Assembly (NCBI GenBank): GCA_009885825.1
Contig: VFJY01000069.1
Span: 1-39,817 of the forward strand
Origin: Rhodobiaceae bacterium
GTDB lineage: Bacteria > Pseudomonadota > Alphaproteobacteria > Rhizobiales > Aestuariivirgaceae
Length of the DNA: 39,817 bases
Direction: 5' to 3'
Below the pieces are notes generated by a model. The model made no database searches, was not told where the DNA came from, and worked only from the letters and a program-made list of their open reading frames with translations. Below are positions 17,794 to 30,694 of the stretch, in pieces (position 1 is the first letter of the stretch; every line of letters starts with the position of its first letter). The translations under genes were made by a program, and so were the position numbers.

Positions 17794-18981
17794 TTAGAGG
17801 ACGGCTGCTAAGCGCTCGGCGACAAGTTCAACTTCGGTTTCATGGAGACACATGGGATTGATGATGATCCGATTTGCGTTCCTTTCGGCTGGATCGACGT
17901 GGATGGAAGGATTGTCGCGCCGCAGCTTGTCAATCACTGCCGCTGCGGAATGCTCGCCCTGCAATGTCAATTCAAGTTGTGGTACGCATTCGACCAATCC
18001 CTCATTTCGGATGCGCACAGCGGTGGCAGCCGAGCTGCTAAGCCGACTTGCAATCAGGTGAATCGATTTCAGCCATCTGGCGTGTCGCGCGGCATCGCCT
18101 TCCGCAATAAACAACCGGAGCGCTGTCAACAACCCGGCGATTTCTTCCTTGCCGACTTTACAGGTCCGGCCAATCCCGTGCTGGGGTGCGCCCTTGAGCC
18201 GCGACTTGTCAATCAGCGCGGCAGGTGGTTCCCACATGTCCCAATGGATGTCATGGTCGAGATGGTGAAGCGCTGCCGCCATGATCAAGTCGCGCCTGCC
18301 GCAGAGAATGCCGCTGGCTTGAGGTCCGCCCAGGGCCTTGCCACCGGAATAGGCGACGAGGTCGGCGCCTTCAGTGATAAAGCGTTTGAGATTGGATTGC
18401 GGTGGCAACTGCGCCGCCGCATCGACAATAACGGGAACCCCGCGCGCGAGGCCAATCCGTGTGAGGTCCTTGAGAGGCGGTTGCGCCTGGGTGTCGGCCA
18501 CATAGAAAATCGCGGCGGTGCGCTCCGTTATGGCGTCGTCGATCTCCCAAGCCTCTGCGTCGCGAACGCCCGCCCCGGCATAGCGGTCAGGCAGACCCAC
18601 CTCGATGATTTTCACCCCGGCTGCACGCACCGCGTGATCGTAGAAATTGCGCTGGCTGCGCACCATGACAACCTCATTCTTCATGCCCGTTGTGTCTGGC
18701 AGGCGCGCCATGGCGCCGGGGTCGAGGCCGGTCACACAGGCCGCGGTTGCCAGCAGTAAACAGGCTGCCGCGCCAGACGCCACATAGCCAGCCTCAGCGC
18801 CCGTGGCCGCGGCAATCACCCTCGACGCAGCGGCTTGCAATTCGGCCATGTCAACACAACACTGGGACGCCTCCACCATGGCCTGTGACACTTCTGGGCG
18901 CATAATACCGCCGGAAAGGCGTGTCGCTGGGCCTTTTGCATTGATGATAGGACTTACACCAAACTGGTCAAAAACACTCAT
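17794..18981 (-). CDS. SelA-like PLP-dependent enzyme
   Basis: A 395-residue fold-type I PLP enzyme of the SelA-like group, which includes selenocysteine synthase and D-glucosaminate-6-phosphate ammonia-lyase (DgaE type). Lys215 in YSGGKALGGPQAS is the expected Schiff-base lysine, and Asp187 in VIVDAAA would contact the PLP nitrogen. No tRNA-binding N-terminal domain is present, and no selB or tRNA-Sec is nearby, so selenium metabolism is unlikely. ATG 18981 has GGAG 9 nt upstream and gives the family N-terminus MSVFDQFGV; an ATG at 19017 is possible but weaker. It is the last gene of the ABC-transporter operon. A beta-elimination or ammonia-lyase reaction on an imported amino sugar acid or hydroxy-amino acid is an inference. 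Confidence 0.82.
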   Translation of the reverse strand: MSVFDQFGVSPIINAKGPATRLSGGIMRPEVSQAMVEASQCCVDMAELQAAASRVIAAATGAEAGYVASGAAACLLLATAACVTGLDPGAMARLPDTTGMKNEVVMVRSQRNFYDHAVRAAGVKIIEVGLPDRYAGAGVRDAEAWEIDDAITERTAAIFYVADTQAQPPLKDLTRIGLARGVPVIVDAAAQLPPQSNLKRFITEGADLVAYSGGKALGGPQASGILCGRRDLIMAAALHHLDHDIHWDMWEPPAALIDKSRLKGAPQHGIGRTCKVGKEEIAGLLTALRLFIAEGDAARHARWLKSIHLIASRLSSSAATAVRIRNEGLVECVPQLELTLQGEHSAAAVIDKLRRDNPSIHVDPAERNANRIIINPMCLHETEVELVAERLAAVL

Positions 18982-18990
18982 ATGTTGCAG

Positions 18991-18994
18991 CTCC
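18991..18994 (-). promoter_or_regulatory. Ribosome binding site deciding the SelA-like start
   Basis: Read on the minus strand this is GGAG, 9 nt before the ATG at 18981. The alternative ATG at 19017 has only a weak upstream purine run, and the residues it would add have no family counterpart. Confidence 0.55.
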
Positions 18995-19082
18995 GTTGGA
19001 TTGGTGGCCTGTTTCATTGCATCAGCTTCACTGCGGCGGATCGATCGAATGGCAATCGGCGGGTCGCAAGCTTGCAGCTTTC

Positions 19083-20180
19083 CTAAGCCACCAGCCCGCG
19101 GGCATCAACCCTGACGGCGCCCAGCACCTCATCGCCCCGCACAAAGACAACCCTGTCAAACAGATTGATGACGGGACAGACATGGTTGGGAGTGATCTTC
19201 ACAAGTTCGCCAATGGCGGGCTTTCTCGCCAGGTGCGAGGTGTCGAGATAGCCGTGCTCCTCGTTGGCGGCATAGACCTGGGCATCTCCCAGATCGTGGG
19301 CTGTGCCATAGCCCTGCAGGCCCAGCAGATCGCTGGTGAGGGATTTTGTTCCCGCATCAATCAAGGCGCGTTCGGAAGTTGGGCGGCTGACCACGGTTGC
19401 AAGCACCTGCACGGCGCAGTCGCTGTATGCGCAGGTTCCCCGTTCAGCCAGTGAGCGGTCAAAATAGATGTAGGTTCCCGCACGGTACTCGGTCAGTTGC
19501 GAGAGGCCTTCATCTTTCCACATGTCGGGCGAGCCGCCCGAGGTGATTATGCCCGTTGCAAGCCCCGCGGCCAGACAGAGCTCCCTGGCTTCCATGAAAA
19601 AGCTTTCCGCCTGCAGGCGTTGGCCAGCGCCTGCGTAAGTCATGAGGCCGCCATATGCCAGCCCAGGCGTTTTATCGATGATCTGCGCCAGATCGACTGC
19701 GGCTTGGGGAGACTGAACGCCGTTGCGATGGGCTCCGGTATCACATTCAACCAAGACAACGATCTTCCGGCCCGCGTTTTTGCCGGCTTCGGCCAGTCCT
19801 GCAACGACATCGGCGCTATCTGCAACGACTGAAATCTGCGTCCGCCTGGCCAGCGCCGCCAGGCGTTCCAGTTTCCTCCTGCCGACAATGTTAAAGGTAA
19901 GCAGCATATCGGTGATGCCGGCGTCGGCCATGACCTCGGCTTCGCCAAGCTTCTGAACCGTTATGCCCTTTGCCCCCAGGGCCAGTTGATATCTGGCGAG
20001 ACCCACAAGCTTGTGGGTTTTGATGTGGGGCCGGTTGGCAATTCCAAGCTGGTCACAGCGCGCCTGCCAGCGCTTTAAATTGCGGTCAACGACATCAATG
20101 TCGATCAAAGGGACCGGCGTCTCAATATCTTCAATGCGTTTGCCGACGGGCTCAAAATTCAGAAAATTGGTTATATTCAT
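19083..20180 (-). CDS. D-threonine aldolase/D-serine dehydratase-type PLP enzyme
   Basis: A 365-residue fold-type III (alanine-racemase-like) PLP enzyme. The PLP-lysine motif RPHIKTHK (Lys54 by family pattern) lies in the N-terminal barrel. A C-terminal metal site with His333 and Cys335 in NHVCPVINL is diagnostic of the D-threonine aldolase, 3-hydroxy-D-aspartate aldolase and D-serine dehydratase group. Such enzymes cleave or dehydrate beta-hydroxy-D-amino acids. The start overlaps the stop of the SDR gene by ATGA, so both are made together. With the SelA-like protein, this gives two unrelated PLP enzymes in one transport operon. Which reaction is catalysed cannot be decided from sequence. 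Confidence 0.84.
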   Translation of the reverse strand: MNITNFLNFEPVGKRIEDIETPVPLIDIDVVDRNLKRWQARCDQLGIANRPHIKTHKLVGLARYQLALGAKGITVQKLGEAEVMADAGITDMLLTFNIVGRRKLERLAALARRTQISVVADSADVVAGLAEAGKNAGRKIVVLVECDTGAHRNGVQSPQAAVDLAQIIDKTPGLAYGGLMTYAGAGQRLQAESFFMEARELCLAAGLATGIITSGGSPDMWKDEGLSQLTEYRAGTYIYFDRSLAERGTCAYSDCAVQVLATVVSRPTSERALIDAGTKSLTSDLLGLQGYGTAHDLGDAQVYAANEEHGYLDTSHLARKPAIGELVKITPNHVCPVINLFDRVVFVRGDEVLGAVRVDARGLVA

Positions 20181-20956
20181 GATGACTGATCCGGATGAAT
20201 GCGAAAGTCTTTTCCTTCCGGCAGGGTTTGTCCGCCATCGACGATGATTGTGGTGCCGGTGATATATGATGCCTCGTCGGAGGCGAGAAAGAGAGCGGCA
20301 TTGGCGATGTCCCGAGGTGTTCCGAGGCGGCCGAGGGGAATCGCATCCTCCATGGATTTGATGTAGGCTGCGGAGCGATGAAGCTTGATGCCTTCAGTGA
20401 GGATATTGCCGGGCTCAATACCGTTGACGGTGATCCCGTAACCAGAAAATTCCAGGGCCGCAGCTTTGATGAAGCCGTTGATTCCTGCTTTGCTCGCTGA
20501 ATAGTGCCCGTGACCGGGGCTTGTGACGCGGGGGCCGGTGATTGATGAGGTAAAGACCATGCGCCCGTATTTCCTGGCTTTCATGATGGGAAGCGCTGCG
20601 CGCGCCGCAAGGAAAGTGCCCCTGAGATTGATGGTTAGAACGGCATCCCACTCTTCGGGTTCAATGTTCTCAATCAGCGTCCAGGGGAATATGCCGGCGT
20701 TTTGAACAATGATATCGAGGCCACCGAACTTTCCTACGGCCTCGCTGACAGCTCGGTCAGCATCGGCCTTTTGGGAGATGTCGGTTGTCACAAAATGTCC
20801 TTGCAGGCGGCGTGCGGTTTCGCGGCCTACTGCCTCTTCCCGGTCAGCGATGACAATTTTGGCGCCCGCCTCGAAAAAACGCGTTGCAATGCCTTCGCCA
20901 ATTCCACGGGCTCCGCCGATTACCAGCGCAACGCGATCTTTGAGCCGTCCGGTCAT
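20177..20956 (-). CDS. SDR-family NAD(P)-dependent oxidoreductase
   Basis: A 259-residue classical short-chain dehydrogenase. The nucleotide motif GGARGIG (14-20) has Gly replacing the usual Thr, and Asp38 in VIADREE suggests NAD use. QNAG at 86-89 and the catalytic Ser138, Tyr152 and Lys156 (YSASK) follow. The C-terminal TGTTIIVDGG block is typical of FabG-like sugar or hydroxyacid dehydrogenases. It overlaps both neighbours by ATGA, placing it firmly within the transporter operon. It probably oxidises a hydroxyl of the imported compound before or after the PLP enzymes act. The substrate is unknown. Confidence 0.87.
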   Translation of the reverse strand: MTGRLKDRVALVIGGARGIGEGIATRFFEAGAKIVIADREEAVGRETARRLQGHFVTTDISQKADADRAVSEAVGKFGGLDIIVQNAGIFPWTLIENIEPEEWDAVLTINLRGTFLAARAALPIMKARKYGRMVFTSSITGPRVTSPGHGHYSASKAGINGFIKAAALEFSGYGITVNGIEPGNILTEGIKLHRSAAYIKSMEDAIPLGRLGTPRDIANAALFLASDEASYITGTTIIVDGGQTLPEGKDFRIHPDQSS

Positions 20957-21951
20957 GCGAGCATCTGCTTTATCGAAAGTTTGACTGTATCGAGCAATAC
21001 GGCAGCCAGCACAAGTGCGCCCAGAATAACCTGCGTATAATGGGCGGGCAGTCCCATCAGATTTATCGCTGTGTGGATGGACGAAAGAAGCAGCACGCCC
21101 GCATAAACACCTGGCAATCTGCCCACACCGCCCTTGAGGCTGACGCCGCCGATCACCACCGCAGCAAAGGCATTGAACAGCATTCCAGTTCCGAGGTTGG
21201 CTGTGGCCCCTGAAGTCCGTATCGCCAAAAGCAACCCCGCAAGGCCCGCGATCGCGCCAGCGAGAACGAAGGTCAACAGCACGAGCTGATCGACTTTGAT
21301 GCCGGCGCGAAATGTAGCGACTGCGTTGCCGCCAATCATCGTCACGTGGCGGCCAAAAGGCGTTCTGCCCATGATAAATGTGAACACCACGAAGCAGATG
21401 ATTGCGATCCAGGCGATCAAGGGAATAAAACCCATTGTTTCGATGCCGATGAAGCGGAGTGGTGGGGCCAGGTCCTGGGCTGAACGCCCGCCGGAGATTG
21501 CGACCACAAGGCCGCGCACCCAGATATAAGAGGCGAGCGTTACGATGAAGGCATTCATCTGGAGTTTGACGACAAGCCAGCCGTTCATAGCGCCGATCAC
21601 GCCGCCCACAAAAATTGCGATGAGTGCGGCCACTGGTATGACCAGCCAGGCAGGGGTTAGAGTGTAGCCTTGGCCGATGCCGTGCGAGCAGAACAATATT
21701 CCGGTTATCATGGCGCTCAGGGCGGCCACCGATTCAACCGACAAATCCATATGACCTGCGATGATCACGATGGCGAGGCCAATGGCCATGACGCCCACAA
21801 AAGTGGATTGTTCGACAATGTTTGCGAATATGCCGATCTGGAAGAAGTTGGGTATTGTCAGCGAAAAAATTGCCAGCACAAAAACCAACATGAACCAGAC
21901 GAGATTATCAAGCGCAAATTCGATGAGCGCTCTTTGGAAGGGACTGATCAT
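20953..21951 (-). CDS. Sugar ABC transporter permease (RbsC/XylH type)
   Basis: A multi-spanning inner-membrane protein of 332 residues from the BPD_transp_2 family, which forms the channel of ribose, xylose and autoinducer-2 type importers. Several hydrophobic helices are visible, with the family segments GHMDLSVESVAALS near the N-terminal third, GGNAVATFRAG in the cytoplasmic loop, and FNAFAAVVIGGVSLKGGVG towards the end. Because the pore is normally a dimer, a single permease gene is enough. I prefer ATG 21951 over the TTG at 21954. It is preceded by the binding-protein gene with an intervening hairpin and overlaps the SDR gene by ATGA. Confidence 0.9.
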   Translation of the reverse strand: MISPFQRALIEFALDNLVWFMLVFVLAIFSLTIPNFFQIGIFANIVEQSTFVGVMAIGLAIVIIAGHMDLSVESVAALSAMITGILFCSHGIGQGYTLTPAWLVIPVAALIAIFVGGVIGAMNGWLVVKLQMNAFIVTLASYIWVRGLVVAISGGRSAQDLAPPLRFIGIETMGFIPLIAWIAIICFVVFTFIMGRTPFGRHVTMIGGNAVATFRAGIKVDQLVLLTFVLAGAIAGLAGLLLAIRTSGATANLGTGMLFNAFAAVVIGGVSLKGGVGRLPGVYAGVLLLSSIHTAINLMGLPAHYTQVILGALVLAAVLLDTVKLSIKQMLA

Positions 21952-21968
21952 CAAGGATATCCAGAAAA

Positions 21969-21996
21969 TGTCCCGGGCTTTACAAGGCCCGGGACA
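21969..21996 (-). terminator. Strong intercistronic hairpin after the binding-protein gene
   Basis: A perfect 10-bp inverted repeat, TGTCCCGGGC and GCCCGGGACA, encloses an 8-nt loop. On the transcribed minus strand it is followed by ATTTTC, a short T-run. It lies in the 57-bp gap between the binding-protein and permease genes. Such hairpins commonly protect the upstream message from 3' decay and partly terminate, raising binding protein over permease. The same fold could be a full terminator, but no separate promoter is seen for the permease. Confidence 0.72.
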
Positions 21997-22008
21997 CTAT
22001 TTCAGTGA

Positions 22009-23052
22009 TTATTCAACTGGCACAATCTTGTCGGCTGGCGCCTTCAGATTGCCCCAGAAACGCGGCTCATCAACATTGTCCTTGGTGATGGCGGCGCCGG
22101 GGATTTTGATGTTTGGACCCCAAGCCTCAATGGTGACGACGGAATCGAGGCCGAGCACTTTATAGGTCCCGGCCTTGATTTCCTGCTTGTTCACCACTTT
22201 GTCAGCGAACATGGCGACCGCAGCGGCCTGGGCATAGAGGGGCTGTTCCACTTCGACGTTGAGCCAGCCCTTGCGGATCAGATCGAGGCCGACCGGAGCG
22301 CCATTGGACGAGATCATCATGACGTCGCCCGGCTTCTTGCCTTTGGCCTCGAGTGCCGCGACCGCTGCCACCGAGAGATGGGCGGCATGCAGGAAGATCA
22401 GGTCGATATCGGGGTTCGCCACCATCTGATCGGACACGATGGTGCCGGCATTCTCGGGAGCCCACTGCAGGGCGGGGAGCGAAATGATCGTTACGCCCGC
22501 GAACTCCTTCATCTTGTCCTCGAAACCCTTCTGGATATCGAGGGAATAGGGATCGGCCGGATCGCCCAGCACCTGCAGGATCTTGCCCTTGACCTCGCCG
22601 TTCTTCTCCTTCAGCAGGCGCTGGATTTCGCCCGCCGCCACCTGACCGATCTCGATGGTTCCGGCAACGGAGGTGAAATCGCTCGGCGTGGCGGTGATCT
22701 GGCGGTCGAATTCGATGACAGGTATGCCCGCCGCGCGGGCCTTCTCGATCGAGGGTTGCAGCGCGTTGAAGTCGACGGCAGCCAGCACGATGGCAGCCGG
22801 TTTCAGCAGGATGGTGTCGTTCATCTGGCTCTGCTGCAGGTCGGTCTTGTTGTCGGCATTGAGGGTGATGGCGTCGTAGCCCACATCCTTGAGGAACTTT
22901 TCAATGGCAGAAACGGATTCAGTCTGAAATTCATCAAGCAGAGTGGGCACCATGTAATAGATGGTTCCCTTGGACTGGGCGAGCGCTGGCGAAGCCAAAC
23001 CGATGGCGGTCAGCGCCAGCGAGCTGATCAATAGTCTGCGAATTCTGTTCAC
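22009..23052 (-). CDS. Periplasmic sugar-binding protein of ABC importer
   Basis: A 347-residue type I periplasmic binding protein (ribose-binding RbsB family, Peripla_BP_4). A signal peptide covers residues 1-25: basic MNRIRR, a hydrophobic core, and a cleavage site after ASPALA. The mature protein has the two-lobe pattern with [16 protein letters not shown] in the hinge region. The start is GTG with AGGAGA 6 nt upstream. Its gene lies between the ATPase and permease genes of the same importer and is followed by the strong hairpin. Ligands of this family are pentoses, hexoses, inositols and amino sugars; the specific one is unknown. Confidence 0.92.
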
Positions 23053-23072
23053 GGGACGTCTCCTTTTTTTGG

Positions 23073-23870
23073 TTATTGGACAAGTTGCGGGCCATTCGGC
23101 CTCATTTCTTGGGCTGCGGCCTCCAGGGCTTCGCCGGTAATCATGCGAACAACTTCATCGGGGCTGGTGTTTTTTGTCCGGACATTGCCCGCAACCTTGC
23201 CATGGCGGATAACCACAATGCGGTCAGCCACCTGGAAAGCCTGCGCCATGATATGCGTAATGATCACAACGCCTATGCCTTGCGCGGCAATGCGCTTGAC
23301 CATGTCGAGGCCGCGGCGCGTCTGTTCAACGCCAAGGGCCGCAAAGGGCTCATCCAGCAGAACCAGCTTGCCGCCCCAGTGGACGAAACGGTTGAGTTCA
23401 ATGGCTTGGCGCTGACCGCCGGAAAGATGCTCGACGTTTATCCGCAGCGAGGGAATTTTGGTGCCAGCATTGGCGATCGCCTGGGCGGCTGCCGCTTGCA
23501 TTTCGGCCTCCTGAAGAACTGGAATGCCGAAGTAGCGTTTCACGATTTCCCGGCCCATGAAAAAATTGGCGACGACATCAACATTGGTGCAGAGCGAGAG
23601 ATCCTGGTAGACCGTTTCGATGCCAGCCGCCTTCGCTTCGGCGGGAGAAGAAAAACTGCGCTGGCGGCCCTCAAACACCATGGTGCCGGATGTGGGTTGC
23701 AGGCCACCCGCGATAATCTTGACGAGAGTGGATTTTCCAGCGCCGTTGTCACCCAAAAGGGCCACCACTTCGCCACGGTGAATATCAAAAGTAATGCCGC
23801 GCAGGGCGTCTATGGCGCCAAAATTGCGCGTGATGTTTTCGAGCCTGAGAAGTGGCGTTTCAACAGTCAT
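23073..23870 (-). CDS. Sugar ABC transporter ATP-binding protein (single-domain)
   Basis: A 265-residue nucleotide-binding subunit with Walker [10 protein letters not shown] (40-48), Q-loop YQDLSL (88-93), signature LSGGQRQ (149-155), Walker B LVLLDEP (169-175) and H-loop ITHIM. It has only one ATPase domain, as in the fructose FrcA type, rather than the double-domain RbsA. After the signature the usual Ala-Arg is replaced by Leu-Asn-Arg, which is mildly odd. ATG 23870 ([10 protein letters not shown]) is preceded by GGAG; the open frame runs further upstream to 23972 but without family similarity. It is the first gene of the operon 23870-17794. Confidence 0.92.
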
Positions 23871-24234
23871 TTTAGCTCCGCACCACCCGACAATGCACGG
23901 AAGATTCTGGACTTTCAATAGATAGTTCAAGGCAGTCGCCATCAGGGAGTCTGCGACGGAGGTGAGCGCCACTCAAACTGCCAGCATGGCCAGTTTCCAA
24001 TCGATACCTTCGCCATCGCCCAACCTCCCGACAAGGGCCTCATGTCCCGTTAACCCGATACTGCACTGGCCGAATTCCTTGTTCAGATGGTCGAACCGAG
24101 AGCTTTTGATGGATCCCACCGTATTCTGGCATGCTCGTAGTTTGCGGCCAGCACAAGTCTATTGTAGAACGTGAGGATACAATTCCACCTCCCGAATATT
24201 GACGCCCGAATATTGAAATGAGAAGGAGAAAACC
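23871..24234. other. Divergent intergenic region between ABC operon and hydantoinase gene
   Basis: This 364-bp stretch must hold the promoters of the leftward ABC operon and the rightward hydantoinase gene. I could not identify a convincing -35/-10 pair for either. The only clear structure is the tandem repeat at 24191-24216. Short open stretches on the minus strand (about 23973-24170) lack a start and a ribosome binding site and are not called. No regulator gene is present. Confidence 0.5.
24191..24216 (+). repeat. Tandem 12-bp direct repeat before the hydantoinase gene
   Basis: CCCGAATATTGA occurs at 24191-24202 and again at 24205-24216, giving a 14-bp period with a 2-bp spacer. The second copy ends just before the AGAAGGAG ribosome binding site. 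Each copy contains the symmetrical core AATATT. It may be a regulator site in the 5' leader or a local duplication. Confidence 0.6.
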
Positions 24235-25692
24235 ATGTCGACAGTCATCAAGGGCGGCACCATTGTAGCGGCCGACAGAACCTACACATCCGACATCCTG
24301 ATTGAAGGCGAGCGGATTGCCGCCGTCGGTGACAATCTGAAAGGCGACAAGGTCATCGACGCCGACGGTGCCTACATCATGCCGGGCGGCATAGATCCCC
24401 ATACCCATCTCGAAATGCCATTCATGGGAACAACCGCCGCTGAAACCTGGGAAAGCGGCACTTTTGCGGCCCTGTCCGGTGGCACCACATCCGTCGTTGA
24501 TTTTGTTATTCCCGGCAAGGATGGAATGCTCGCAGCCCTTGCCGATTGGGAGCGCAAAGCCACCAAGAGCGCCTCGTCCGATTATTCCTATCACATGTGC
24601 ATTACCGGCTGGTCGCAAAAACATTTCGAAGAAATGGCGCAGGTGGTTGACCGCGGCATCAACACCTTCAAGCACTTCATGGCCTATAAGGGCGCATTGA
24701 TGGTGAATGATGATGAAATGTTCGCCTCGTTTCAGCGCTGTGCTGCATTGGGAGCATTGCCCCTGGTCCATGCCGAGAATGGCGATATCGTGGCAGCGCT
24801 CCAGGAAAACTACATGAAGGCAGGCATCAGCGGCCCCGAGGCCCATGCCTATTCTAGGCCACCGGAAGTTGAAGGCGAAGCCGCCAACCGGGCCATCATG
24901 ATTGCAGATGCGGCAGGCGTTCCCGTTTACATTGTTCACACGTCTTCCGAACAGGCCCATGAAGCCATCCGCCGCGCCCGCCAGAAGGGCATGCGCGTTT
25001 ATGGCGAGCCCTTGATCCAGCATTTGACCCTCGATGAAACCGAATATTTCAACAGGGACTGGGACTATGCGGCCCGCCGCGTCATGTCGCCGCCGTTCCG
25101 CGACAAGAGCCACCAGGATTCGCTCTGGGCCGGCCTCGCTGCCGGTTCATTGCAAGTTGTGGCGACCGACCATTGTGCATTCACCACCCAGCAGAAGCGC
25201 ACGGGTCTTGGCAACTTCACCAAGATTCCAAATGGCACCGGCGGCCTCGAAGACAGGTTGTCTGTCCTGTGGACCAAGGGTGTTGAAACCGGCAGGCTCA
25301 CCAAGAATGAATTCGTGGCTGTGACCTCAACCAACATTGCACAGATTCTGAACATTTATCCGCAGAAAGGCGCAATCCTGGTGGGGTCCGATGCGGATCT
25401 TGTAGTCTGGGATCCAAAACTGTCCAAAACGATTTCCGCAGCGAACCAGAAATCTATTATCGACTACAACGTGTTCGAAGGTTTCAAAGTGAACGGGCTG
25501 GCGCGCCATACCATCTCACGCGGCGAAGTTGTCTGGACTCACGGCAAAAACGATCAGGCAAAGCCCGGCCGCGGCAAACGAATTCTGCGAAAGCCATTCC
25601 CGGCGGTCAACCAGGCGCTATCAGTTTGGAAGGAGCTGACAGCCCCCCGCGCCGTAACCCGCGCCCCTGAGCATATGCCCATCGGCGTTTAG
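24235..25692 (+). CDS. hydA: Dihydropyrimidinase / D-hydantoinase
   Basis: A cyclic amidohydrolase that opens dihydropyrimidine or hydantoin rings to N-carbamoyl amino acids. It has 485 residues, the normal length. The binuclear metal site is complete: His56 and His58 (DPHTHLEMP), the carboxylated Lys152 (FMAYKG), His179 (LVHAENGD), His235 (IVHTSSEQ) and Asp312 (ATDHCAF). AGAAGGAG precedes the ATG. It stands alone on the plus strand, divergent from the sugar ABC operon and convergent with an SDR gene 2 bp beyond its stop. No beta-ureidopropionase, N-carbamoylase or dihydropyrimidine dehydrogenase gene is in the window; the nearby amidase might take the next step. Confidence 0.93.
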   Translation: MSTVIKGGTIVAADRTYTSDILIEGERIAAVGDNLKGDKVIDADGAYIMPGGIDPHTHLEMPFMGTTAAETWESGTFAALSGGTTSVVDFVIPGKDGMLAALADWERKATKSASSDYSYHMCITGWSQKHFEEMAQVVDRGINTFKHFMAYKGALMVNDDEMFASFQRCAALGALPLVHAENGDIVAALQENYMKAGISGPEAHAYSRPPEVEGEAANRAIMIADAAGVPVYIVHTSSEQAHEAIRRARQKGMRVYGEPLIQHLTLDETEYFNRDWDYAARRVMSPPFRDKSHQDSLWAGLAAGSLQVVATDHCAFTTQQKRTGLGNFTKIPNGTGGLEDRLSVLWTKGVETGRLTKNEFVAVTSTNIAQILNIYPQKGAILVGSDADLVVWDPKLSKTISAANQKSIIDYNVFEGFKVNGLARHTISRGEVVWTHGKNDQAKPGRGKRILRKPFPAVNQALSVWKELTAPRAVTRAPEHMPIGV

Positions 25693-25694
25693 GG

Positions 25695-26393
25695 TCAGAG
25701 CATAGCAGCGCCGCCATTGGCGCCCAAGCACTGGCCGGTGAAAAATGTGGAACCCGAACCGGCCAGAAACACGATTGTTGATGCAATCTCCCCGGGCCTG
25801 CCGATGCGGCCCAGGGGGTGGGCGGTTTCCAGGGCTTTTTGTTCCGAATTCATGGCCGAAAATCCCAGAAGTGCCGTGTCAGTTGGACCGGGAGCCACTG
25901 CGTTGACGAGTATCCGTGGAGCCAACTCCCGCGCCCACGAGCGCGTCAGGCCCAGCATTGCAGCCTTGGAGGCGCAATAAACTGAGGCATCTGCCCGGCC
26001 AAGATAGGCCAGTTCGGAAGCCAGATTGATGATCCGGCCGCCATCCCCAATATGTGGCAGGGCCTCCCTTGTCACCAGGATTGCGCCACGGACATTGATG
26101 GAGAAGTGCCGGTCAATGTGTTCAGCCGTGATCGCCGGGATGCCCAGCTCCTGCATGATGCCCGCATTGTTGACGAGCACATCAATTCCCCCAAGCTCGG
26201 CTGCGGCAGCGGCAACGGCGCTTATGATATCACCCTCCTTTGCAAGGTCGCATCGGATGAGCCGCATTGATGGTTGCGATGTATCGTGATCAAGCCCAAT
26301 CACACGGGCCCCTTGCTGCGCGAACATGGTCGCGGTGGCAAGTCCTATGCCATTCGCCGCACCCGTGATTACAACACGTTTTCCGCTCACCAT
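25695..26393 (-). CDS. SDR-family oxidoreductase (short form)
   Basis: A 232-residue classical short-chain dehydrogenase with TGAANGIG (10-17), NNAG (75-78) and catalytic Ser126, Tyr139 and Lys143 (YCASK). Asp35 after the second strand suggests NAD use. It ends a minus-strand operon and its start overlaps the previous SDR gene by 7 bp. The C-terminus lacks the usual VDGG and reads GANGGAAML, so it is slightly divergent. It most likely acts on an alcohol or keto group released from the compound imported by the adjacent NitT/TauT-type transporter. The specific substrate is unknown. Confidence 0.85.
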   Translation of the reverse strand: MVSGKRVVITGAANGIGLATATMFAQQGARVIGLDHDTSQPSMRLIRCDLAKEGDIISAVAAAAAELGGIDVLVNNAGIMQELGIPAITAEHIDRHFSINVRGAILVTREALPHIGDGGRIINLASELAYLGRADASVYCASKAAMLGLTRSWARELAPRILVNAVAPGPTDTALLGFSAMNSEQKALETAHPLGRIGRPGEIASTIVFLAGSGSTFFTGQCLGANGGAAML

Positions 26394-27142
26394 GGCACGT
26401 CACCCCGGTCTACGCCAAGCGACTGCCCTGTTATGTTGCGGGCAGCATCGGAGGCCAGGAAAAGGTAGGGCTCAGCCATATCCTCCGGCTCCATCAGCCC
26501 CGGCAGCGCTTGCCCACCTACAATGGTTGCCAGTAATTCATCTTCGTCAATGCTTTGCCTCGCCGACATATTCCTGAGGGAGCGCATCGATGCATCCGTT
26601 CTGACCCAGCCGGGGCAAATTGAATTGACGCGAATTCCCTTCGGGCCAAGTTCCTTTGCCCAGGTTTTTGTCAATCCTATAATCGCGTGCTTGGAGGCTA
26701 CATAGGCCCCAAACAGAGGCTCCGCGACGCGGCCCCACGTTGAAGCTGTATTGATGACGCAGCTTCCGCTCGCCATTTTTGCAAGTGCTCGCCTCGTTAC
26801 AATCTGCGTGCCGATGATGTTGATTTCAATGATGCGTCGAAACGCCTCCTCAACTTCAGCGCCTCCCTCTGCCAGCGGCGTCATCAATTCAAGCCCGGCA
26901 TTGTTGACCAGTACGTCTATGCGGGTCAGCGCGGCAAGTGCCATCGAGACGGCCTCTCCATCCCTGATGTCGGCAGCAAATCCTGTGGCCCCCAATTCCG
27001 CAGCTTTGGCGACAATTGGACCGTCGAGTGCCAACAGGGTCAGCTTTGCTCCCGCCGCGGCAAAACCTTTTGCAACGCCGAGGCCAATGCCGCGGCTTGC
27101 GCCGGTAATCACCACGGATTTTCCACGAATGCTAGCCGTCAT
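26387..27142 (-). CDS. SDR-family oxidoreductase
   Basis: A 251-residue classical SDR with TGASRGIG (13-20), NNAG (80-83) and catalytic Ser134, Tyr147 and Lys151 (YVASK). The acidic residue normally found after the second strand is replaced by LALDG, so cofactor preference is unclear. It overlaps the ATPase gene upstream by ATGA and the next SDR gene downstream by 7 bp. The two adjacent SDRs differ clearly and are not a recent duplication. Paired SDRs in a transporter operon suggest an oxidation plus a reduction (net epimerisation) or two sequential oxidations; this is inferred. Confidence 0.86.
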   Translation of the reverse strand: MTASIRGKSVVITGASRGIGLGVAKGFAAAGAKLTLLALDGPIVAKAAELGATGFAADIRDGEAVSMALAALTRIDVLVNNAGLELMTPLAEGGAEVEEAFRRIIEINIIGTQIVTRRALAKMASGSCVINTASTWGRVAEPLFGAYVASKHAIIGLTKTWAKELGPKGIRVNSICPGWVRTDASMRSLRNMSARQSIDEDELLATIVGGQALPGLMEPEDMAEPYLFLASDAARNITGQSLGVDRGDVPW

Positions 27143-27906
27143 CTGACTGTCTCCGCCTCCTTGCGAATGAGATGCAAAACCTCATTCCGTAATTTAAAAA
27201 ACTCCTGCGATTCTCGCGCAGCCAATGTCCGCGTTGCGCCCAAGATCTTCGTTACAATAATATCTTTGATAACGCGCGCCGGGCGGGCTGAAAACAGAAT
27301 GATGCGGTCGGCAAGGAATACCGCTTCTTCCACATCATGGGTGACAAAGATGATCGTCTTCTTTTCCTCGGCTTGAATCTGGCGAAGTTCAACTTGAAGG
27401 CGTTCGCGTGTGAGCGCGTCAAGCGCGCCAAACGGCTCGTCCATCAGCAGCACATCAGAGCCAGCGGCGAGGCTGCGGGCGATGGCCACACGCTGCCGCA
27501 TGCCGCCCGAAATGCGGTTTGGGAATGACTTGGAAAAATCTTCCAGTCCAATGAGTTTTAGATAGTGGGCTACCCGTTCAGCTCTCTGGTGCGCATGGAG
27601 ATCGTCTCTGTAGCGCATGCCGAATGCGATGTTGCCTTCAACCGTCAGCCATGGAAATGATGAATAGGATTGAAACACCATTCCACGCCTGCGGTCTGGC
27701 CCCGCGATAGCCTCGCCGCCCAGTCGAATGGTGCCCGTCGTTGGTGTGTCCAGCCCGCCAGCCATGCGCATCAGGGTTGTTTTGCCGCATCCCGAGGGGC
27801 CAAGGAAAACGACAAGCGAATTTCGCGCAATTGCGAGGGATGATTCCGAAACCACAGACACATCGCCGAACCTCTTGGTCACCTTTTCAAATGTCAGGTA
27901 ATCCAT
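27139..27906 (-). CDS. NitT/TauT-family ABC transporter ATP-binding protein
   Basis: A 255-residue ATPase of the SsuB/TauB/NrtD group. Walker A GPSGCGKTT spans 36-44, the Q-loop is FQSYSSFPWLTV, the signature ISGGMRQRV, Walker B VLLMDEPFGALD and the H-loop VTHDVEEA. The Q-loop wording and short length are characteristic of nitrate/sulfonate/taurine importers. It lies 2 bp after the permease gene and overlaps the SDR gene by ATGA, so all five genes from the binding protein to the SDRs form one transcription unit. The family also carries pyrimidine precursors (the HMP/ThiXYZ and RutG-neighbour types) and riboflavin, so substrate is not implied. Confidence 0.92.
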   Translation of the reverse strand: MDYLTFEKVTKRFGDVSVVSESSLAIARNSLVVFLGPSGCGKTTLMRMAGGLDTPTTGTIRLGGEAIAGPDRRRGMVFQSYSSFPWLTVEGNIAFGMRYRDDLHAHQRAERVAHYLKLIGLEDFSKSFPNRISGGMRQRVAIARSLAAGSDVLLMDEPFGALDALTRERLQVELRQIQAEEKKTIIFVTHDVEEAVFLADRIILFSARPARVIKDIIVTKILGATRTLAARESQEFFKLRNEVLHLIRKEAETVR

Positions 27907-27908
27907 TC

Positions 27909-28691
27909 CTATAAATACCTGAACATGCGGCGGTGCAGGGCGCGCAGAAGCTGGTCAGTGATCAGCCCGATCAACCCAATGACCACGACACCGGCCATGA
28001 CTTCGGGCGTTTTGACGTAGCGGCGCGCCGACCAGATGACAAAGCCCAGGCCTGAATCAGCCGCGACAATTTCTGCGATAACAAGATAGGTCCAGCACCA
28101 GCCAAGCGTTATGCGAAGATTGTCGACAAGATTCGGGCCCATTGAACGCAATGCGACGTCTGTCATAACCTGCCTCGGTCTGGCCCCAAGGGTGAATGCG
28201 ATCTCGACATATTCGTGCGGCACCCGGCGCATATCGTCTGCCACCAGCAGCACCAATTGAAAGAACGTGCCGAGCCACAGCAGGAAGATCTTTGTCTCCT
28301 CGCCGACTCCAAACCAGATGATCGAAAGCGGCACTAGCGCCGGTACTGGCAGATAGCGGATGAAATCTATCATTGGCTCCAGTGGTGCCCCGACTATGCG
28401 GTAGCTGCTCATCAGAATGCCAATGGGAATGGCCATGGCGGCAGCAATCAGGAACGCCACCCAGACCCGCAGGCTTGAGATGAGTGAATGCCACAGCAAA
28501 TGCTGTGTCGTGGCCATTGTCCACAAGGCGGCAATCACTTTGCTGGGTGGCGGCAAAAATTGCGGCGCGACGAATTCGAGCCGCGCCACGACTTCCCACA
28601 AAAGCAGGACGACCACCGCCGCCGCGACACCGAGCGCGAACTCGGTGCCAGCGGTGGCTTTTCCCCTGAAAGTGAGGACTTCTCGCATCAT
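27909..28691 (-). CDS. NitT/TauT-family ABC transporter permease
   Basis: A 260-residue membrane protein of the BPD_transp_1 (SsuC/TauC) family with about six hydrophobic helices. The ATPase-docking EAA loop reads EIAFTLGARPRQVMTDV, close to the family consensus. The N-terminal segment LLLWEVVARLEF and the later FIRYLPVPALVPLSIIWFG are typical of this group. ATG 28691 starts the protein with a second ATG directly following. The gene sits 21 bp downstream of the binding-protein gene and 2 bp upstream of the ATPase gene, giving the usual binding-permease-ATPase order. Confidence 0.91.
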   Translation of the reverse strand: MMREVLTFRGKATAGTEFALGVAAAVVVLLLWEVVARLEFVAPQFLPPPSKVIAALWTMATTQHLLWHSLISSLRVWVAFLIAAAMAIPIGILMSSYRIVGAPLEPMIDFIRYLPVPALVPLSIIWFGVGEETKIFLLWLGTFFQLVLLVADDMRRVPHEYVEIAFTLGARPRQVMTDVALRSMGPNLVDNLRITLGWCWTYLVIAEIVAADSGLGFVIWSARRYVKTPEVMAGVVVIGLIGLITDQLLRALHRRMFRYL

Positions 28692-28712
28692 GTCACGATG
28701 CCGAGACTCCCG

Positions 28713-29702
28713 TCAGGGCGCAATCGTGTTGATAACGGAGCCGTCGATTTGCTGTGCCGCGTCAAGTTTGCTGTCGGCGCCGCCGTTCTCCAGATTCAGC
28801 TGCATGACGGTATCAAAGATATCATGCAGCGATCCCTTGGCGCCCGCAGCACCCAAATAAGCCTTTGCGTCTGAAAGTGTCGTATATGCCAGGCTCGTCT
28901 CCAGAATCTCAGTCACCTCGGCAGCGGTCAGCCCATAGTGAGAAGCGGCCATTTCGGCGTATTTGGCGGGTTCCGTCTTGCTATAGTCAACAGCCTTGTA
29001 GATGCACTTCAGGAAGCTCGCGTATTTTTTGGGGTTGGCGGCCAGATCGTCCTGCCTGGCGGTGATCACATCGATAATAATGCCCTTGTAATCCTTTGAC
29101 GAGAAGAACATGCGGGCGCCGGGCCGACCGGAAGCTTTGATGGCCTGCGACATGAAAGGCTCGTAGCTGGCAATTGCGGCAATCGAGCTATCGGCAAAAA
29201 TTGCGGCCGTGTCGGCAGTGGCGATGTCCTTGATTTGCAAATCGGCCAGCGTCATGCCTGCCTTTTTCAATTCCATTTGCAGCAGCAGGCGTGCTGGAAT
29301 ATTGGGTTCAGCGGCCACTGTCTTTCCTTTCAAATCGGCCACCGTCTTGATGGCATCATCGGTGATGACGCCGTCACCGCCCAGGGATTCATCAATGGTA
29401 CCGATAATGACACCTGGCGTGGAGGCATCGCGCGGTCTTCCCTGATGCTCGCCGACAGTGCGCATATCGACCTCAATATCACCTCGCACATAGGCTGCCA
29501 TGACGTTTGAGCGGTCATCCTCGAACTTGTAATCGACTTCAAGTCCCTCTTCCTTGAAACATCCCAGGTCATTGGCCACGTGGACTGGCGCAAAACCAAG
29601 CCAGGTGGGCGCCAACATGCGAATAACCTCCGCTGAGTTTGCGATGCCACAAGTGCCCGCCAGCAAGACGATTGCGGCGGTGCCAATGAGTAATGATTTC
29701 AT
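28713..29702 (-). CDS. NitT/TauT-family ABC substrate-binding protein
   Basis: A 329-residue periplasmic binding protein of the NMT1/SsuA-like fold. A signal peptide is clear, with a likely cut after GIANSA (residue 24). The mature N-terminus has the family opening LAPTWLGFAPVHVANDLGCF, and PNIPARLLLQME lies in the middle. GGGAGAA precedes the ATG at 29702; the frame runs further upstream without similarity or signal. It follows the deacetylase gene by 92 bp. The ligand is unknown; the neighbours (hydantoinase, cyclic-amidase-like protein, amidase) make a small nitrogen heterocycle or amide likely. Confidence 0.9.
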   Translation of the reverse strand: MKSLLIGTAAIVLLAGTCGIANSAEVIRMLAPTWLGFAPVHVANDLGCFKEEGLEVDYKFEDDRSNVMAAYVRGDIEVDMRTVGEHQGRPRDASTPGVIIGTIDESLGGDGVITDDAIKTVADLKGKTVAAEPNIPARLLLQMELKKAGMTLADLQIKDIATADTAAIFADSSIAAIASYEPFMSQAIKASGRPGARMFFSSKDYKGIIIDVITARQDDLAANPKKYASFLKCIYKAVDYSKTEPAKYAEMAASHYGLTAAEVTEILETSLAYTTLSDAKAYLGAAGAKGSLHDIFDTVMQLNLENGGADSKLDAAQQIDGSVINTIAP

Positions 29703-29794
29703 GACGTTCTCCCAAATTTTATTGCAAGTAATTATTCTTGCATGTTGTGAAATTTCCCGTTTGAAGTCCAGCCCCATTTTGGCAGACTCCGAAG

Positions 29795-30694
29795 CTAAAC
29801 CCGTTTTGGCGCAACTGGCTGGTGGTAGTAGGGCAATTGCTCCACGCGGGGGACATAAGTGCCATTTTTGCGGCACTCCAGGATATGCCCGGCAATCTGC
29901 TCCAGTGTGGCAAACCACACTTCGCCTGTTCCCAGCATGTAGTCGATCATTTTCTCCACCCGCAGCCAGCGTGAGAGCCTCCCACTGACAAAGGGATGCC
30001 ATATGCCCACCCAAAGCCCGCCGCCAACCTGCCGCATAGCTTCGAATTCAGACAAAAAAACCTCCATCGCCCGCTCGGGCGCCATGACCTGCATGACATA
30101 GTTGAGATCAATGGAGTGCACATAGGGCGGCCAGTCGTCCGTGGCCCAGCTGGTCGGTATCTCCACCAGCTCGCCAACCTTCGTTTTCAGAATGTAGGGC
30201 ACATCATCGGCCATCAGGGACGAGTCATAGAGAAACTTCTCCTCCACAAGCAGGTCGGCAGTATGATTGGAGAAGTTATAGAGTGGTGACCGGTTTCCCC
30301 GGGGCCTCTTGCCCGTATGTTTTACGACCGTGTCAATGGAACGTTGCATCCAATAGTATTCATCTTCCCGTGTGAGGCTGTTTGGAGCTTCATGGATGTA
30401 GCCATGAAAACCAACCTCATGTCCGTCCTTGACCATTGCTTCAACGGCATGGGGGTATTGCTCAATGCACCAGGCGGGCACAAAAAAAGTCTGTTTTAGA
30501 CCGTGCCGCCTATAGGTTTCCAGAATTCGCGGCACGCCAACAGTGGGTCCGTAGCGCAGCATTGAGATCGTGGAGACGCGCTTTATTGAATCTTGTGGAT
30601 GCTCGATATGGACAAGACTGTCCGCATCCATGTCGAAAGTGATGGCACAGGCCACTTTGGCGCCATTCGGCCATGGAACCGGATTTGAAATCAT
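29795..30694 (-). CDS. NodB-fold polysaccharide deacetylase family protein (PuuE/cyclic-imidase-like)
   Basis: A 299-residue cytoplasmic protein with the NodB homology domain and no signal peptide. The metal-binding triad is visible as Asp21/Asp23 in ITFDMDAD and His97/His101 in FHGYIHE; Arg135 with RSPLYN is the next conserved block. Lack of export, and the N-terminal wording, place it with the PuuE allantoinase/HpPgdA/cyclic imide hydrolase branch, whose members open cyclic amides rather than deacetylate chitin. Good SD GGGGAG precedes the ATG. It lies between an amidase gene and a NitT/TauT importer. A role in opening an imported cyclic imide or ureide is an inference. Confidence 0.84.
   Translation of the reverse strand: MISNPVPWPNGAKVACAITFDMDADSLVHIEHPQDSIKRVSTISMLRYGPTVGVPRILETYRRHGLKQTFFVPAWCIEQYPHAVEAMVKDGHEVGFHGYIHEAPNSLTREDEYYWMQRSIDTVVKHTGKRPRGNRSPLYNFSNHTADLLVEEKFLYDSSLMADDVPYILKTKVGELVEIPTSWATDDWPPYVHSIDLNYVMQVMAPERAMEVFLSEFEAMRQVGGGLWVGIWHPFVSGRLSRWLRVEKMIDYMLGTGEVWFATLEQIAGHILECRKNGTYVPRVEQLPYYHQPVAPKRV

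Follow-up and report, generated by a model that had tools for sequence, protein, structure and literature searches.

An ABC importer operon of a Rhodobiaceae bacterium with two unrelated PLP enzymes: a predicted kinase-free oxidative route for free hexosamines

The stretch of DNA analysed here (39,817 nucleotides of contig VFJY01000069.1, from a Rhodobiaceae bacterium; hereafter the window) carries an operon of six genes, all on the reverse strand and running from position 23870 down to 17794. They encode, in this order, the ATPase, the binding protein and the permease of an ATP-binding cassette (ABC) importer, a short-chain dehydrogenase (SDR), a pyridoxal-phosphate (PLP) enzyme of fold-type III and a second, SelA-like PLP enzyme. 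A preliminary description of this DNA had given the same genes in the same order, and had remarked that the importer operon lacks a kinase; the positions of the open reading frames (ORFs) and the Pfam matches bear out the order, and the operon does lack a kinase gene. We consider it rather probable that the operon serves a kinase-free oxidative route for free hexosamines, made up of the importer, the SDR, a PLP ammonia-lyase, a 2-keto-3-deoxygluconate (KDG) kinase and a 2-keto-3-deoxy-6-phosphogluconate (KDPG) aldolase.

In the proposed route, the ABC importer would take up free D-glucosamine and/or D-galactosamine, and the SDR would oxidise the sugar at C1 to the 2-amino-2-deoxy-aldonolactone or acid. 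A PLP ammonia-lyase would then strip off the 3-hydroxyl and the 2-amino group, yielding 2-keto-3-deoxyhexonate and ammonia; both PLP enzymes are predicted to perform such an elimination, perhaps on different epimers. KDG kinase would phosphorylate the 2-keto-3-deoxyhexonate and KDPG aldolase would split the product, with candidates for both enzymes lying elsewhere in the genome. Oxidation by the SDR and PLP-driven loss of ammonia had both been put forward in the preliminary description, and both are supported as predicted steps; instead of acting one after the other, as it had it, the two PLP enzymes probably carry out the same kind of step.

The importer and its predicted ligand

The periplasmic binding protein (22009..23052, reverse strand; Peripla_BP_4 by Pfam and alignment) matches Avi_5305 of Agrobacterium vitis (PDB IDs: 4y9t and 5br1) with an E value of 9e-164 and approximately 78% identity over nearly the full length; the next-best match is at 8e-21. 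Avi_5305 is reported to be specific for D-glucosamine and D-galactosamine by way of Tyr168 (PMC13209645, citing Yadava 2016), and in the available text of that paper the binding protein alone is described, catabolic genes going unmentioned. Tyr168 aligns with Y169 of the window protein, and at least 47 of the 49 rows in the alignment of the family (duplicates included) keep this residue. Judged by its alignment, the binding protein is a close orthologue of Avi_5305, and the importer ligand is predicted to be free D-glucosamine and/or D-galactosamine, from the reported specificity of a 78%-identical protein. Uptake of an ordinary ribose-type sugar is rejected, the binding protein being an Avi_5305 orthologue and far from RbsB. 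The predicted structure of the binding protein had a pLDDT (predicted local distance difference test) of 42 when computed from one sequence and of 53.9 from seven sequences, the latter model serving for a Foldseek look-up only.

The amino-sugar theme of the preliminary description is thus well supported through the importer. The compound that it proposed, an amino sugar acid or a hydroxy amino acid, fares less well: free glucosamine or galactosamine is the likelier import, and the amino sugar acid would be made inside the cell by the SDR.

The SelA-like PLP enzyme

The SelA-like enzyme (17794..19017, reverse strand; Pfam and profiles), which relatives suggest to start near residue 13, belongs to the superfamily of SelA and DgaE, and its PLP lysine, K227, aligns with that of DGL. 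It scores 167.5 against the DgaE-family model TIGR01437 (cut-off 385.3). Filing it as a DgaE equivalog is ruled out by a score of 155.8 against NF047797 (cut-off 600), and as SelA, the seryl-tRNA selenium transferase, by a score of 48.7 against TIGR00474 (cut-off 267.9). The public records examined name the family only as 'aminotransferase class V-fold PLP-dependent enzyme'.

In DGL, His162 and His163 are described as strictly conserved, with His163 acting as the proton donor (PMC9529869, in the portion of the paper at hand). This pair is absent from the window enzyme and from the 18 distinct relatives displayed out of 89 aligned, and SHH is present in all three DgaE-type comparators. The clade of the window enzyme has in addition an extra stretch of approximately 27 residues (about 253–279) with conserved D254, D256, W262, P264 and P265. 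The window enzyme appears to have no arginine at the likely phosphate-binding places, in a comparison in which the C-terminal part of DGL is out of view and one of the three comparators also differs. The two kinds of enzyme share the superfamily, the PLP lysine and, by prediction for the window enzyme, the type of elimination, whereas DGL acts on a 6-phosphate following uptake by the phosphotransferase system and carries the His162/His163 pair and lacks the extra stretch. The window enzyme can be read as a predicted ammonia-lyase for an unphosphorylated hexosaminate. The same elimination has been published for OngC with glucosaminate as substrate (PMC9537276, as far as its available text goes) and for DgaE with the 6-phosphate.

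The 11 SelA-like rows linked to the importer cluster as a single group (support 95/79) in a tree of 86 rows, which omitted identical rows, rows shorter than 330 residues, L006 and L052; the grouping requires 1 change against a mean of 10.6 for shuffled labels. Two weaker SelA relatives that also adjoin the importer (L116 and L122) were unlabelled in the tree and are placed outside this group.

Relatives of the SelA-like gene were found in 31 plasmid records; the 20 listed are all haloarchaeal, and 11 regions were examined. An annotated glucose 1-dehydrogenase gene lies adjacent or next but one to the SelA-like relative in 5 of these 11 regions (three Halorussus, one Haladaptatus and one Halosolutus), a Rid protein is encoded in 6, a PIG-L deacetylase in 6 and a polysaccharide-lyase or heparinase-type enzyme in 2. 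Such gene sets are what a route from N-acetylglucosamine (GlcNAc) via glucosamine and glucosaminate to KDG would need. A similar GlcNAc route, with a kinase, has been proposed for natronoarchaea (PMC12343721). In the accessible text of that paper, a glucose dehydrogenase and a DgaE homologue are proposed for glucosamine breakdown in Natrarchaeobius; in contrast to the route outlined here, a phosphorylated intermediate and an unknown kinase are proposed there, and experiments are called for. The haloarchaeal SelA-like relatives examined here lie in clusters similar to those of that proposal.

In the genus, the gene immediately upstream of the SelA-like one encodes a conserved protein of approximately 263 residues, for which the only match, to PhyH, is below threshold (L005:8812-9600; E 0.008). 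Judged by length and sequence start, L105, L106, L163, L167, L168, L171 and L179 have it as well.

The fold-type III PLP enzyme

D-Glucosaminate dehydratase (EC 4.3.1.9), a PLP- and metal-dependent enzyme, has been described biochemically. The fold-type III enzyme of the operon (19083..20180, reverse strand; Pfam and alignment) has the Ala_racemase_N and D-ser_dehydrat domains and an HVC motif at residue 333. Its best solved relatives are the D-threonine aldolases 4v15 and 7dib and the D-threo-3-hydroxyaspartate dehydratase 3wqc, and the metal-motif comparison took in these three structures. At the metal site both aldolases have HVD and the dehydratase has HAC, and an HxC motif is present in all 14 aligned sequences (the window enzyme and 13 relatives). 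From these few characterised proteins we infer that the enzyme sides with the dehydratase. Its two domains and HxC motif place it with the metal-dependent fold-type III D-amino-acid dehydratases, and it is predicted to be an ammonia-lyase for hexosaminates or D-beta-hydroxy amino acids. Filing as a D-threonine aldolase is rejected on account of HVC in place of HxD, and as BhcC on account of a profile score of 189.7 against a cut-off of 690.

RidA-family genes accompany imine-releasing PLP enzymes. Profile-confirmed RidA/YjgF genes adjoin fold-III relatives in L118, L109 and L131 and lie by the importer module in L175 and L180, the only loci for which such confirmation was obtained. The preliminary description had left a choice between retro-aldol cleavage and dehydration for this enzyme; dehydration is favoured, and the invariant HxC motif together with the RidA genes near some relatives speaks against retro-aldol cleavage. 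Elsewhere, fold-III relatives neighbour importers for amino acids or for other sugars, as well as genes for RidA and M81 proteins. On two Phyllobacterium plasmids (L146 and L147), a carbohydrate ABC importer of another class, an SDR, an RpiR regulator, a PLP enzyme of the D-threonine-aldolase family, RidA and M81 are encoded next to repABC.

A counterpart for the predicted reaction is found in the ong pathway of chitin oxidation, in which the fold-type III PLP enzyme OngC converts unphosphorylated D-glucosaminate into KDG and ammonia, and whose cluster includes RidA and a KDG kinase (PMC9537276). That pathway differs in starting from N-acetylglucosaminate derived from products of lytic polysaccharide monooxygenases, in using a transporter of the SSS family and in including a deacetylation; an ABC importer, an SDR and a SelA-like enzyme are not named in the part of the paper available. 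The likeness to OngC is one of described reaction and fold.

Association of the genes across genomes

With a match threshold of E 1e-80 or better, and counting the genome of the window itself, the binding protein was found in 20 of 297 genomes from the order, in 2 of 385 from the class and in 32 of 199 nearest relatives (10 of these already in the order set). Neighbourhoods were examined in 43 importer genomes, comprising the 20 from the order and 23 more, with 28 of the 43 belonging to the window's own family; a PLP gene was counted as near if it lay within six called genes of the binding protein. By this measure, the SelA-like gene (at least 55% identity) is near the importer on its own in 16 loci, the fold-III gene (at least 48%) on its own in 6, and both in 5, giving totals of 21 and 11, respectively, and 16 loci with no strong PLP form. 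For the 15 loci outside the family, the corresponding numbers are 2, 2 and 1. One of the loci with the SelA-like gene alone (L109) has a fold-III gene of 49% identity nine genes off. A contig edge truncates three of the 43 loci on the side of the SDR gene, and several more come from short contigs (3.4 kb for L183); moreover, the simple gene caller drops some overlapping genes, making the ROK and RidA counts lower bounds and some of the assignments to neither PLP family possibly wrong.

Both PLP genes recur together with the SDR gene in 4 of the 42 other loci: L119, from another family, preserves the gene order, and L175, L177 and L180 have it rearranged. The expectation that the six genes would be found together in other genomes is realised in part: there is some recurrence, and the pair of PLP genes is not obligatory. 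Taken singly, each of the two PLP genes shows an association with the importer. The fold-III protein is present in 119 of the 297 genomes, namely in 19 of the 20 with the importer and in 100 of the 277 without it (p 1.5e-7), and, outside the family, in 13 of 14 importer genomes compared with 98 of 271 others (p 3e-5). The SelA-like protein is present in only 10 of the 297 genomes, 7 of them with the importer (Fisher p 2e-7), and outside the family in 6, 3 of them with the importer (p 0.002); all these p values ignore kinship and genome size. Beyond the 43 loci, two Rhizobium tumorigenes plasmid records contain the module with an annotated 'alanine racemase', the copy in L102 being 49% identical to the fold-III enzyme of the window, and Rhizobium sp. 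SL42 has the module with neither PLP gene.

A regulator of the ROK family, the family of NagC and Mlc, is encoded in at least 29 of the 43 loci, and in relatives its gene usually stands at the head of the module. No such regulator was found in the contig of the window; the genome has two matches to the ROK protein of a relative, the best at 31% identity, on other contigs, and neither is shown to be an orthologue. In one importer locus with no PLP gene near (L161:1-1345), the SDR gene is followed by a DHDPS-family gene and by what looks, on visual inspection, like a proline-racemase gene truncated at the contig edge.

The dehydrogenase and the downstream steps

The SDR (20177..20956, reverse strand; Pfam, YxxxK at residue 152) is a predicted amino-sugar C1 dehydrogenase. 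It scores 222.1 in the PRK07231 'glucose 1-dehydrogenase' subfamily (cut-off 215), and an SDR at least 63% identical to it is encoded beside the importer in 37 of the 43 loci. For the steps after the elimination, the genome of the window contains 13 PfkB matches, of which three were scanned and one was best matched to KdgK, as well as two matches to the KDPG-aldolase (Eda) family and three to the SMP-30 lactonase family, none of the latter in the contig of the window. A PfkB gene that adjoins the module in L178 has its best match in a kinase of KDG or 2-keto-3-deoxygalactonate (KDGal), and SMP-30 lactonase genes lie beside the module in L116 and L118.

Weighing of the proposed route

Several observations weigh against this reading of the operon, in addition to the lack of correction for kinship and genome size mentioned above. 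The operon in the window has no gene for a lactonase, RidA or a ROK regulator, the family assignment of the SDR says little on the position oxidised, and the KDG-kinase matches fall under the curated cut-offs (KdgK 260.9 of 400 in the window's genome, 204.7 of 400 in L178). Neither PLP family is near the importer in 14 of the 43 loci, and 2 more have only a SelA relative of 31–35% identity; outside the family, 8 of the 15 loci have neither and 2 only the weak relative, leaving a strong PLP neighbour in 5. The PLP genes occur together in 5 of the 43 loci against 5.4 expected under independence (p 1), showing neither attraction nor avoidance, which also weakens the idea that they replace each other. 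Six of the 11 haloarchaeal regions have no annotated glucose dehydrogenase, and in 11 of 12 chosen loci of a Rhodospirillales type a gene of a different fold-III subfamily comes after the SelA-like gene, with at most one called ORF in between. Lastly, a D-erythronate dehydrogenase gene adjoins the module in L108 (L108:5320-6303; NF043036 score 384.1, cut-off 325), with the same gene start in L172-L174, and a 3-oxo-tetronate kinase gene adjoins a fold-III relative in L126 (L126:6506-7762; 623.5, cut-off 350).

These tetronate genes could fit a link to a route in which the fold-III enzyme is an aldolase. Its cleavage of hexosaminate would give glycine together with erythrose or threose; this tetrose would be oxidised and passed to tetronate catabolism, and the SelA-like enzyme would act on another substrate. 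We regard this as unlikely: the metal site is HxC and not HxD, the score against the BhcC aldolase model is far below its cut-off, RidA genes neighbour some fold-III relatives, and no fold-III gene lies near the module in L108 or L172-L174.

A shade less likely is a sequential action of the two PLP enzymes, in which one might be a C2 epimerase or racemase that feeds the other, so that both are needed for one substrate. The conserved gene order in L119 would agree with this, as would the Rhodospirillales-type loci, which suggest that PLP enzymes of both kinds are able to cooperate. The latter arrangement, with a 3gwq-like fold-III gene (homology to 3gwq checked for L061 alone), was noted in L059, L061, L063-L066, L068-L070, L073 and L074, the 12 chosen loci not including L067, L072 and L077-L079; most of these loci have an M81/MlrC metallopeptidase gene, often followed by one for an HpcH/HpaI aldolase, with enolase-like and dehydrogenase-like genes nearby (largely by eye). 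However, the module has only the SelA-like gene near it in 16 loci and only the fold-III gene in 6, although another part of these genomes may hold the missing partner, and the D-ser_dehydrat domain and HxC motif favour elimination over racemisation.

Least probable is that the PLP enzymes are mere neighbours of a hexosamine importer, engaged in general breakdown of D-amino acids or D-beta-hydroxy amino acids: fold-III relatives are common in the order, keep company with other importers, RidA and M81, and neither PLP family is near in a third of the importer loci (14 of 43), but the fold-III protein accompanies the importer in 19 of 20 genomes, the SelA-like rows linked to the importer fall into a single tree group, and in the window the SDR gene overlaps the fold-III gene.

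Organization of the operon and its surroundings

The ATPase (23073..23870, reverse strand; Pfam) has 265 residues from an ATG at 23870, with which the starts of homologues agree; the ORF could be extended to a GTG at 23972. It has one ATP-binding domain, with a Walker A motif (GDNGAGKS), a signature (LSGGQ) and a Walker B motif (LLDEP). It is not the double-length ATPase of approximately 500 residues of the ribose (CUT2) family, and its match to RbsA-type models covers their first half only. A strong stem-loop (21969..21996, reverse strand; -24.2 kcal/mol, z -5.3) separates the binding protein gene from the permease gene and is perhaps a message-stabilising or attenuating hairpin 3' of the binding protein gene. 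The permease (20953..21954, reverse strand; BPD_transp_2 by Pfam) has a TTG start. The ATGA overlaps said to occur among three of the genes are real and lie at two junctions, permease/SDR and SDR/fold-III. The SelA-like gene begins 65 bases past the fold-III stop, and the operon ends with it, because its stop is only 22 bases from that of the convergent glgX gene.

On the other side of the operon, positions 24235-30014 hold a divergent gene for a D-hydantoinase/dihydropyrimidinase (over the cut-off), then, on the reverse strand, two SDR genes and an NMT1/THI5-type ABC importer. This second catabolic cassette is unrelated-looking with respect to the operon.

Significance

The preliminary description knew of no characterised pathway with exactly this set of genes. 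A full-text literature search yielded nothing to contradict this; closely similar parts, on the other hand, are characterised (Avi_5305, OngC and DgaE), and the Avi_5305 paper may discuss the cluster. The chemistry is partly known, the gene set and one enzyme family look uncharacterised, and the pathway is probably a new variant of oxidative amino-sugar catabolism. A broader and distinctly tentative proposal is that the SelA-like clade is an uncharacterised family of ammonia-lyases for unphosphorylated hexosaminates, with a proton donor other than that of DgaE, spanning alphaproteobacteria, Gemmatimonadota, Latescibacterota, Acidobacteriota and haloarchaea, and that the two PLP lyases of the operon split D-glucosaminate and D-galactosaminate between them.

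If the proposed route is correct, it would assign genes to a kinase-free use of glucosamine and galactosamine, give a substrate and a reaction to the widespread SelA-like family, and reveal the coupling between catabolism and an amino-sugar importer whose specificity has been reported. The reason for the presence of two PLP enzymes is the interesting part; the operon would allow a clear-cut check on whether one and the same elimination has recruited two unrelated PLP folds within one operon.

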